This document shows, piece by piece, positions 38,327-58,554 of a DNA stretch of 64,000 bases. Origin of the DNA: Meghimatium bilineatum (Eukaryota; Mollusca; Gastropoda; Stylommatophora; Philomycidae); contig CM067299.1 in assembly GCA_034231615.1 (NCBI GenBank), positions 19,620,498 to 19,684,497 on the forward strand. The letters run 5' to 3'. The notes beneath the pieces were generated by a model. That model worked only from the letters and a program-made list of their open reading frames with translations. It did no database searches and had not been told where the DNA came from. A program made the translations under genes and the position numbers. Numbering within the stretch: position 1 is the first letter of the stretch; each line of letters opens with the position of its first letter.

Positions 38327-41300
38327 CTGTTTGAAATTCACAACAAAAAAACATAAATTAAATAAGTGTACATCATTTATTTTATAACAAAACATGAAAG
38401 ATTTCATAATGAATTTAAAAAACTGCTGTGACAAAAATTACAAATTACATGAAATCTCTGGTGCACTTTGTTCTGACTAAGTCTCTCTTACGCTAAATAT
38501 ATCTTGTTTGCGTGCGCACACATTCTAAATATATAGTCCAAGCGACACTGATGTGTTCACCGGGGCACTAAAATCACTATCTATAGCCCTAATCCTGGAG
38601 GAATGCCTATTTGTTGTATGCTAACTTACCGCGACTGACCGGCGGTAGAACACCTGTTCTCTGAATTAATTAGGTCTTCATTCATTCATTTTCTTGATTA
38701 TTCTCTAGCTTTTCGTTGGTCAATATTTATATAATTGGAATGGCATGTCAAATATAACCACGGCTACTCCAAGTATATAAACAGAAACCAATGGAAAACG
38801 TGACATTAATATTAAAAATGTACTGAATGAAGGCATGTTTACTTTTTTCAGTTAGGTCTTATAGTACCGTCCATGGTCACGAACTAACCTACAATTTTAG
38901 GGATTTGCAAAAGAAGACGCCGTATTGTTTACTTCCGAAGTAATCAGAGCACATTGAACCTAATTTTTTTAGTGGGCGTATGAGGATATGTGGGTAGCGA
39001 CTGAAACAGCGGCAGAAAGTTCAATCAATATGATCGTGGATAGCTTTGAGATTGAGTGACTAGCGTGTAGTACGGGCGCCAGTTCTCTCGTACCGCTGGA
39101 GTACTAGCGATATGTCTACATTACACTGTTCAGTGGAAGTGGAGGACACACTCAACGTATTAGTTATCAACACCAAAGTAGAATTTATCGAGCCATTGGT
39201 GCAAAAAAAATGAAAACGGTGCCGCAACGTATCTCCGTTCTATGGACAACATCCTGCTAGAATTAATTTAGGATCATGGTTCTGCAATAAGAGAGATCCA
39301 GTGAAATATTGTAATCAAACGCCCAAACACAATTTCTTAATCTAACAGAGCGATAAAAACGATATTTCCTATGATGATGAGGATGATGATGATGATGATG
39401 ATGATGATGATGATGACAATCATAATGTATTAGTAGTGTCTAAGGAGCATACGTTGTATCGAATAAATAAGGGATCACTTATGAGGGATCAGCAGATATC
39501 TCATCATGTCAGTAGCTGCCATGTATCTGAGACGGTTTCTAGATATCTGCCAAAGATTTTTAGTTGTTAGCTGAATTATCGTACTCCTTCACTTACATCT
39601 TTGAAATGGATCAAAGAGCATGAGCCCAGGGACCGCTGGATCAGCAACCAACCATATCTTTGAAACGATATAATGGACTTCATATACCATTCTGGCAGTG
39701 TCCTATATATGGGAGATTACCTAAAATGTGGGCACCATGCTTGGCTAAATTCGTATCGCAATGTAATAGGCGCAATACAGTGTATTTACATAAATTTGCG
39801 TTCTAGTTAGGCAATTTATCTTTTATATATATATATATATATATATATATATATATATATATATATATATATATATATATATATATATATATATATATAT
39901 ATATATATATATATATATATATATATATATATATATATATATATATATATATATATATATATATATATATATATATATATATATATTCCCGTAAGCATAA
40001 ACGTTTCAGAAAAGTTTTAAAATGTACAGTTTATATTTGAAAATGAGCACAAAAATTGTCGTTTATCACTTTAATTTCCTTTTCGTTTAATAGAAGCAAT
40101 AGCGTCAAACGTCAATATATTCTTAATTGAATCTAGCATTCCGGAATATATTTTTGTGTGAAAGATATATATATATTAGAAATAGTTCAATTTGTTTTTA
40201 AAATTCATTATTTTAGCATATCCAGATGTTCATGTTAATTGTTCATTAATAAATATTTCAGTAATTAAAGTACAATGCTTCAATACCAGCCACATAGTGA
40301 TAATGATTACATTGTGCATACAGTTAAAATATATTTTTATTTTATTTTGAGCTACATTTGCTCTACATCTTTTACTGACCAATACAGTTTCCAACAGTAT
40401 CGTGGATACGAATTTGTCATAACAATATGGGGCTGTGGTGTTCAAACTTTATTTATTACAAATATGAACTATTTGTGTTGTCTGTCTATAACCTCTATGA
40501 TTTTGGCATTGTATTCAATTACTGCATTATTTTTTTTAATTGGTTTGAACATTCATGAGCATGCATACTGTACATTTTATTGAGCTATCTATAATATGTG
40601 TATTATTTCTAATATGAGTATTATTTCTAATATGTGTATTATTTCTAATGTGTGTATTATTTCTAATGTGTGTATTATTTCTGATATGTGTATGATTTCT
40701 AATATGCGTATTATTTCTAAAATGTGTATTGTTTCTAATATGTGTATTATTTATAATATGTGTATTATTTATAATATGTGTATTATTTCTAATATGTGTA
40801 TTATTTCTAATGTGTATTATTTCTAATATGTGTATTATTTCTAATATGTGTATTGTTTCTAATATGTGTATTATGAAGTTACTTATATGTTAAGTATACT
40901 TTTATACGGATGTGAAAGCTGGACACTGTACAGACACGGAAAAAAATGACTCAGGCTTTTGAATACAAGTATTGCAGACGTTTGTTAAGAATTCCCTATA
41001 TAGAACACAAGGCAAATATATTCGTCTGGCAGCAAATAAACAAACTTGCAGGTTATCAGGAACAACTTTTGGCAGTGCTGAAGCGATGAAAAAACTGTTT
41101 GATTTGGGGGTAGTGAGACCTTACTTTCTAAAACTATTTTGCAAGGAAACTTTCACAAAGTAATTGTCACTCTTGAAAAGAAATGCAGAGATTGAGAAAT
41201 TTGAAAAGCAAACTTCGAAATCAAGCAGCTGATTGCTAATAACTGGAGATGGTGATATCCGTGTGCTCATCGATCAATCTGTGCGTTCTGGTAAGATGTT

Positions 41301-44300
41301 GGCTGGGACTTTACAACCAGAATTGCGGTAGAGTCATTGTCGAAAACAGCGGAGCATACGGAACAACTACACCCAACATGAGAATGGAAGTCGAGGCTTC
41401 CCTCAAATGGATAAATAACCAAAGCGGTTATTATGTAAGACTCCCAGTCATTTCTGCAAAAACAATCAAAAATGGCCGATATCGATATGAGTAGACGGCA
41501 TCTACAGCTGCATCTAACTTCCATGGCATCCCATGGATTTACTGCCCATACATTCGTGTGTTCATGGTATTGAGAATTCAGACAGACTGGCGTCTCATGC
41601 ATAAATAGGCGGGTATTGACATTCGGTAAGGGATATGTGCTGAAACTCCTTCATGAGCGTCTGCTGAATGTGGACATCAAAATCGATGAAACATCGAGGA
41701 TGAGATTTGAAAACTTCGATATTAAGTGTAGTAGTAATAGAAATGTACGCCTGCAGGGAGGAACGAGAAGAATGTTTAACCGGAGGACCATAGGAACCAT
41801 GAGGTTGAACCCCCTCAACTCCGTCGCTGCCATATCTATAGCTCTGTTTTCCAACATCATCATTTGTTTTCCTGCAGTAATTTTAATACGGTGCACCATT
41901 TTTTACTACAAACTATTGTTTGATGTCATGACTGTCACGCAATGTGAACAGTTGTTTAAAATAAGATTCAGTTACTTGTGAAGCTAGTTTACTGGTGATC
42001 TTTGTAAACGGGATGGGGTAGCTCAGGTATTAGTGATCTGGCTTCCTAGTCGGACGATCCAAGGTTCAATTTCTAGTTCAACAGGAAATAAATGTAAATC
42101 AACAACTGATCCAAGGACGACCTAGCCTAAGGAAAAGGGTACCAAATTTTCTGGAAAGGTAAAGGTGGCAGTGAGATGTTAACAACATTATCCATAGGTA
42201 TGTCGAAGAACGTGTGAAGGAAAAATACGAGACTAACGCAGTATTCCCCAATACGCCTCAATTGTGTGAAACATGGAGAACTTCTGGACTGTGTACGTCA
42301 ACAATTTCTCTAACAGCTAGTACATTTTTAATGTTGTAAGTAAGGGTCTTTAATAATTCTCACGTTTCCTCAGATAATCTGAAATAATGTCCACGCAGGC
42401 GCGTCGCCTTGCCTGAAAGTGAAGCAAATAATAGCAATCGTTATCTGTATGTCTTCAGAGACGACTAATGAGGCTTAGTGTGGCGTCGTCGTCCCCATTC
42501 ACAGGTAAAAGTGACATAAAAGGCTGGCTAAAGTCGGATATATTTTGCAGAAAGGCTAAAATATTGTAGCCAATCTGTAATCGATGATATATGACATTCC
42601 ATTATCCTAGTCACAACGTACTAGCCAGCAGGAGTTGAAGTATTAACCAAGAAGGAGAAGTCTGTCTTACAGAAAACGAGAAACCTTCGCGACAAAGTGA
42701 AAGTCATAAATACAAGTGAAAAACAAACCGCATACAATACATCTCCTCCACAGTCATCAACAGCAACACTTTAGTACAGGCCACTGCAGACTGCTGTGCA
42801 ACCTCTACCTATTAAGGATCTCACAACCAAACGAATTCCCAAGCGGGTCCAGAATATAAATCTCCAAACAAATACTTCAGGACTGCCGAACAGACAATGA
42901 GTCAAGCCACGGATGTGGTCAGATAACGCAAAGCTTATGCAAAATCTATGGGAAAGCCGTTCTAGCCTGGGGAAGATAATGGACTTCACGCGAGAGACGG
43001 GATTGCCAGTCTAACATGATCAATGACGAGACCACAGAAAAAGAAGAAGAAATCCTAACAGTTTCCAATAATCATGCTATTACATACATTGCACTGCTAA
43101 TGCTTTCCGGTTCTGTAGCTTAGACGTACATAACGCATCTCAAATGTACATATTATAATTACCCAGGAAATAAATACACTCAAAAAGCGATGTGTTGATC
43201 ACTTCGTCTTGAAAAGGATCTGCTATCAACAATTACTGCTACTGCAGCAACTACTACTGATACTACTGTAAATATATCAATAACAATTACTACTACAGTA
43301 TTACAACAGCTAGTATTACTACTACTACTACTTGTATTACTATTACTACTAACACCACCATTACTACTTTTACTACTAATACTACCACCATTACTATTAC
43401 TACTACTATTACTACTAATACTACTATTGCTATAACTACTACTACAGCTAATACTACTACTACTACTACTACTACTACTACTACTACTACTACTGCTACT
43501 ACTAATATTTATTGTACTACTACTACTACCCTTACTACTACTACTACTACTACTACTACTGCTACTGCTACTACTACTGCTACTGCTACTACTACTACTA
43601 CTACTACTAATACTACTATTATTACTACTACTACTACTACTACTACTACTATTGCAATGCTACAGTTACTGCAAGTAACTCTGTTGATGTTGTAACCATG
43701 TTTGCAGTCGTTTTATAATTAAGGCGGGTGGAGGGAGTCCTTGACCAATTGTTTGGTGTGTTTTTGTGCTAAATAACATTTTTCGGCGTTCATTCTCAAA
43801 CTCCGGCTGGATCTCTCTGTAATGGATTCTTGTAGCATTACAAATATATATATATAATATGAAATAATCGCCACTGCATGTCTGTTCTCAATTCCTTTAC
43901 ATTCCGTGGCGTTTCTGATAAAATCACATATTCCTCTTACCTGTGCAACTGAGACGATAAACGGACTCTTATATGAGTGTCTTAAAGGCATGGCTGAGTG
44001 AGGGAGGTTATGGATGCATATTTAGTCCCCGATGTGAGACATTAGAGTACTTCAGTATTTTAGAAATACCCCGTCCTGAAAGGATCACAGCACGCGGCAT
44101 AACTATCTCATCATGCTTCTATCGTATTTGCTTACCCATCGGCAGCTATTGCACACCTAGCATTCCCCGTCGCCGTAAGAGTCTGCCACAAGAGGCCAAA
44201 TGTGCAATGTCTCTTGCTTGCATCTTTTCGTCATTCATGAGGATGATTTGACAGAAGTTAGAGTAAGCAATTGAGACAAGATGTTACAACGATGATTATG

Positions 44301-58299: not shown

Positions 58300-58554
58300 C
58301 CAAGCCCGTAGATTGGGGGCGGGTGGTGGTGGGGTATTTTGGGATGTTCAAACCCCCAGAAAATCAGGACATGATTTTTTCATTCTCGTACAAAACACGG
58401 GTACCCACTCCCACCCCTATTGAATTATTTTCCACGAAAAGGTCATCACTTTCTCGTTAAAAAGATGAGATTGCACACGAAAGTGGGAAAATGACCTTGT
58501 TTAGGTAACCTACCCTTTCATACTGAAGAGGTATCTACGACCCTGAAATAGTGC
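58300..58554. mobile_element. C/G-run MITE-like repeat (copy B)
   Basis: Same as 48,305-48,555. It marks the right limit of the duplicated block. Confidence 0.5.

Follow-up and report, generated by a model that had tools for sequence, protein, structure and literature searches.

A Ptf1a-like locus doubled across an assembly gap in the land slug Meghimatium bilineatum is probably an unmerged overlap of two haplotypes

Most of a Ptf1a-like gene is present twice in the genome assembly of the land slug Meghimatium bilineatum, once on each side of an assembly gap. The question raised by this locus is whether the slug has gained a second copy of the gene or whether a single locus has been assembled twice. 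Here we describe the doubling in a window of 64,000 nucleotides (C2:19,620,498-19,684,497), which is the whole stretch of DNA that was analysed, in a genome of 1,612,235,226 bases and 32 contigs. The published assembly is reported to have 1.61 Gb in 25 pseudo-chromosomes, to which 2521 contigs are anchored, and 7 unanchored scaffolds, with 266 contigs in the 122.74 Mb of chromosome 2 (PMC10770140). According to the same report, heterozygosity estimated from k-mers is 1.05%, the genome size estimated from k-mers is about 1.5 Gb, and 15.9% of BUSCOs are duplicated. We are highly confident that the doubling is a heterotype false duplication, an unmerged haplotype overlap, and not a new gene.

The doubled stretch consists of two collinear copies in the same orientation, copy A and copy B, which align end to end and are separated by the sole N run in the window (Table 1). 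No N runs were found in the 200 kb to the right of the window. The alignment of the whole copies has 9096 aligned columns with 196 substitutions (97.8% identical) and 71 indel events, of which 49 involve a single base. The doubling is recovered as six BLAST pieces, each with an E-value of 0, which rules out chance. The right contig begins with a base that pairs with position 38905, and the left contig ends with one that pairs with position 58553. The homology reaches the very end of each contig at the gap, and the outer edges of the doubling are therefore mere images of the contig ends. A sequence-only reading of this DNA had described two collinear copies abutting exactly 100 N, with copy A ending at the gap and copy B beginning there with sequence internal to copy A, and the alignment bears out both points. 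The range it gave for the doubling, 38905 to 58554, has the correct start and runs one base too far at the end.

The sequence-only reading also took this geometry to be the signature of two allelic contigs set end to end. The allelic reading is supported by the evidence presented below, but the geometry is necessary for it and not sufficient, because a true tandem duplication with its junction inside the gap would look identical. Such a duplication of part of Ptf1a would be real and recent, its junction and perhaps more of the unit would be hidden in the gap, and copy B would represent the 5' part of the gene in a state of decay. The gap could conceal a junction of this kind, so the geometry permits it. 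No duplication breakpoint or unit-to-unit junction is present in the sequence of either copy, and only the gap has room for one. The homology to both contig ends and the absence of a visible breakpoint in the copies favour the allelic reading. The assembly was made from HiFi reads averaging 18.6 kb with hifiasm, Purge_Haplotigs and 3D-DNA (PMC10770140). Reads of this length should span and resolve a 9.7-kb unit, so a true tandem pair would not be expected to be left in this state.

Table 1. Positions in the window of the doubled stretch, the exons of the Ptf1a-like gene and the insertions private to one copy
Feature	Position	Strand	Length	Remarks
Copy A	38905-48555		9651 bases	End of left contig; regarded as one of two haplotypes
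Assembly gap	48556-48655		100 N exactly	Sole N run in the window
Copy B	48656-58553		9898 bases	Start of right contig; regarded as the second haplotype
Ptf1a exon 1, copy A	46524-47049	-		ATG at 47049; intact; in frame, GT donor
Ptf1a exon 2, copy A	44481-44666	-		Second part of bHLH; AG acceptor, GT donor
Ptf1a exon 3	38133-38326	-		Outside the doubling, in the left flank of copy A; AG acceptor in frame
Ptf1a exon 1, copy B	56513-57037	-		Three one-base indels and one substitution relative to copy A
Ptf1a exon 2, copy B	54624-54810	-		One one-base indel and two substitutions relative to copy A
Repeat insertion, copy B only	52950-53409		460 bases	11-base target-site duplication at 52950 and 53410; single at 43150 in copy A
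SINE-like insertion, copy A only	45564-45783		220 bases	Between 8-base direct repeats at 45565 and 45772; third repeat at 45556

The exons of copy A joined to the exon in its left flank give an open frame of 302 amino acids, a complete three-exon gene. The joined protein contains the Pfam HLH domain (PF00010, E 5.6e-19) and exon 3 matches the C-terminus of human PTF1A with an E-value of 1.7e-6. Both characters of PTF1A, a bHLH domain and a C-terminal motif that follows it, are thus found in the joined protein. A search of solved structures with this protein matched other bHLH proteins, the best of which was Twist1 (7.9e-14), and no Ptf1a was listed among the matched structures. The bHLH domain and the match of exon 3 to the PTF1A C-terminus suggest the name Ptf1a-like, which is used here. 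Just past exon 1 on the gene strand, intron 1 carries an array of units of about 64-72 bases (46008-46474 in copy A and 56022-56464 in copy B) that differs between the copies.

In copy B the first two exons are present and exon 3 is missing. Set against the 712 coding bases of copy A, its sequence shows 3 substitutions together with 4 one-base indels, which break the frame that is intact in copy A. The missing exon and the broken frame are in keeping with a tandem duplication, under which the locus would comprise an intact gene and, upstream of it, a fragment in decay that carries a promoter region of its own; to this arrangement we assign very little probability. A protein search of the genome, with all 60 candidates scored, returned the three exons described here, the broken exons of copy B, a relative on C1 and weaker bHLH genes. 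Exon 3 was found in one place at 97% identity and the next match was a 58% relative on another chromosome. The earlier proposal that exon 3 exists once, outside the doubling, is upheld by this search. The animal most likely has a single Ptf1a gene at the C2 locus.

Outside the tandem arrays the two copies differ by 110 substitutions in 7630 aligned bases (BLAST pieces). This divergence of 1.44% is near the k-mer heterozygosity of the assembly, which favours the allelic reading. It is also unevenly distributed, which speaks against that reading, with 0.53% over 46476-48555 and 1.55% over 40875-43160. Each copy also contains a repeat insertion that is lacking from the other. Relatives of the insert of copy B occur in the window and in the 200 kb that follow it. 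The element of copy A was matched by all 40 of the places scored in a genome search (40 out of 1234 first-look candidates), one of these being copy A's own, and the corresponding site in copy B has one mismatch to the 8-base repeat. Tandem arrays vary in length between the copies, as in an array of 18-base units, of which A has 15.8 and B has 26.8. The difference in length between A and B is due to the repeat insertions and to the length of the tandem arrays. Reciprocal insertions between direct repeats further favour the allelic reading. Together with the substitutions, as seen in the assembled sequence, they would fit a pair of alleles. Copies A and B appear to derive from two molecules, as the insertions are beyond what read errors would explain.

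The comparison also yields many one-base indels. There are 51 of them to the 110 substitutions outside the tandem arrays in the BLAST pieces, as against 49 in the full alignment and 44 outside six hand-named arrays, the count varying with mask and aligner. In a control of 36 repeat pairs from the window and the adjoining 200 kb (85-95% identity, at least 100 bases, the pairs overlapping within repeat families) there are 30 one-base indels to 688 substitutions. The ratios differ with a Fisher p of 3e-21, a value to be read with the control pairs not being independent events, and the frequency of one-base indels at this locus is about tenfold what natural divergence would produce. Removal of the sole control pair that touches A or B leaves 35 pairs with 673 substitutions and 28 one-base indels. 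The control excludes two bands of identity. The one at 95-99.9% has 4 pairs with 26 substitutions and 7 one-base indels and as it stands counts against the indels being errors; two pairs that involve copy B carry six of the seven, and the other two have 15 substitutions to 1 one-base indel. The 80-85% band has 89 pairs with 3000 substitutions to 143 one-base indels (81 pairs and 2640 to 109 without A or B), a ratio close to that of the 85-90% band.

The one-base indels stay dense where the substitutions thin out. Over 46476-48555 there are 15 one-base indels and 11 substitutions, compared with 16 and 35 over 40875-43160 (Fisher p 0.03). Among the 44 outside the six named arrays, 33 are extra bases in copy B and 11 are bases missing from it. 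The insert of copy B has four one-base indels that are private to B when set against 2 to 5 related copies per place, in an alignment read by eye. In comparisons with outside repeats, copy B has 9.3 substitutions per one-base indel (371:40, 10 pairs), the left contig 19.6, and the neighbouring 200 kb 16.9 and 25.9. The right contig past copy B has 10.7 (5 pairs, some of which involve B), and copy A has 7.5, a figure from a single pair of 124 aligned bases with 15 substitutions and 2 one-base indels. This low ratio tells against copy A being the more accurate of the two. Base polishing is not mentioned in the assembly section of the published description (PMC10770140).

Copy B resembles the tip of a contig at which the consensus is inaccurate, and copy A would be the accurate copy, mainly in view of its intact coding frame. 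The excess of one-base indels makes consensus error a more likely cause of the broken frame in copy B than pseudogene decay. Copy B was considered as a pseudogene and this was rejected, as the one-base indels are too many per substitution and lie mostly beside identical bases. The contrast with the neighbourhood repeats points to sequencing error and away from decay, and the coding bases, with merely three substitutions beside their four one-base indels, argue in the same direction. Given also the length of the reads, a tandem duplication of the gene is in our estimation distinctly unlikely.

Read errors could in principle account for the whole doubling. Both contigs would then come from one haplotype and would have stayed unmerged through such errors alone, a homotype false duplication. 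The position of the one-base indels is in accord with this, as 41 of the 44 adjoin an identical base, compared with an expectation of 45% calculated from the order of bases in copy A. However, the 460-base insertion in copy B and the 220-base insertion in copy A, both between direct repeats, and the differences in array length are no read errors, and a homotype origin is a still less probable explanation than a tandem duplication.

The heterotype overlap suggests the following course of events. The assembler would have placed the two haplotypes of a single locus at the ends of separate contigs, one contig stopping at 48555 and the other starting at 48656. The ends were probably not merged on account of substitutions of about 1-2%, the two repeat insertions, several tandem arrays of different length, and the poor base accuracy at the start of the right contig. 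Haplotig purging at the level of contigs drops contained contigs and spares overlapping ends, so both would have been kept. Hi-C scaffolding would then have set the two contigs side by side with a 100-N spacer. 3D-DNA normally inserts spacers longer than 100 N. The spacer found here is shorter than this default, which is at odds with the proposed pipeline. The purge_dups paper states that purge_haplotigs misses heterozygous overlaps (PMC7203741), and the use of a purging tool that leaves such overlaps favours the allelic reading. A different source for copy B would be a haplotype from another individual, or a rare low-depth molecule that was drawn into the assembly. The methods mention adult slugs in the plural (PMC10770140), and copy B does resemble poorly corrected sequence. 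The methods text is without a statement of pooling for HiFi, however, and also speaks of 'the land slug' (PMC10770140). This source is the least probable of those considered, and we regard it as extremely unlikely.

Doublings of this kind have been described in other assemblies. The heterozygous overlaps between primary contigs that purge_dups removes (PMC7203741) resemble the present case, in which collinear ends of two contigs stand side by side in an assembly cleaned with a haplotig-only tool. That class is defined by half coverage, and the present case is recognised from its sequence. A heterotype false gene duplication such as ZBTB11 in the old zebra finch assembly (PMC9516828) likewise has most of a gene doubled across a gap, with signs of extra base errors. 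Among the traits that Ko et al. (2022, PMC9516828) report for false duplications are an assembly gap that separates the copies and a surplus of erroneous k-mers. Our comparison with that study covers sequence-based traits only; the gap is seen here, and a surplus of errors is suggested by a proxy, one-base indels in place of read k-mers.

Scans of the window for tRNA, Rfam and Pfam features returned nothing that bears on the doubling, the Pfam scan having covered 10 non-simple open pieces out of the 136 that are at least 75 amino acids long. A reverse transcriptase-like fragment lies at 11432-11866 on the minus strand (Pfam RVT_1, E 5.7e-6, under the curated cut-off) and is likely the remnant of a retroelement.

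A second Ptf1a-like gene is located at C1:78366710-78382994 (78.367-78.383 Mb). All three exons match, with no stops within the matches, at identities of 56%, 77% and 58%. This gene is like the C2 gene in all three exons; yet it is separate, on another chromosome and far more diverged. Counted correctly, Ptf1a probably occupies two loci in the assembly, the present one on C2 and this relative on C1. Further bHLH genes from the Ptf1a search lie at 75.03-75.22 Mb on C1 and 13.25-13.29 Mb on C2. The presence of bHLH genes on both is a hint that the two chromosomes may be mutual duplicates. The Stylommatophora are reported to descend from a whole-genome duplication (PMC12328838). In view of this report and of the bHLH matches on both chromosomes, the C1 gene may be the partner of the C2 gene from that duplication.

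The doubling is of more importance to users of the assembly than to biology. Gene counts at this locus could report an extra, broken Ptf1a-like gene next to the true one, and the case illustrates how an overlap can survive haplotig purging at the level of contigs. Where a lineage has undergone an ancient genome duplication, overlaps of this kind can pass for retained duplicates.
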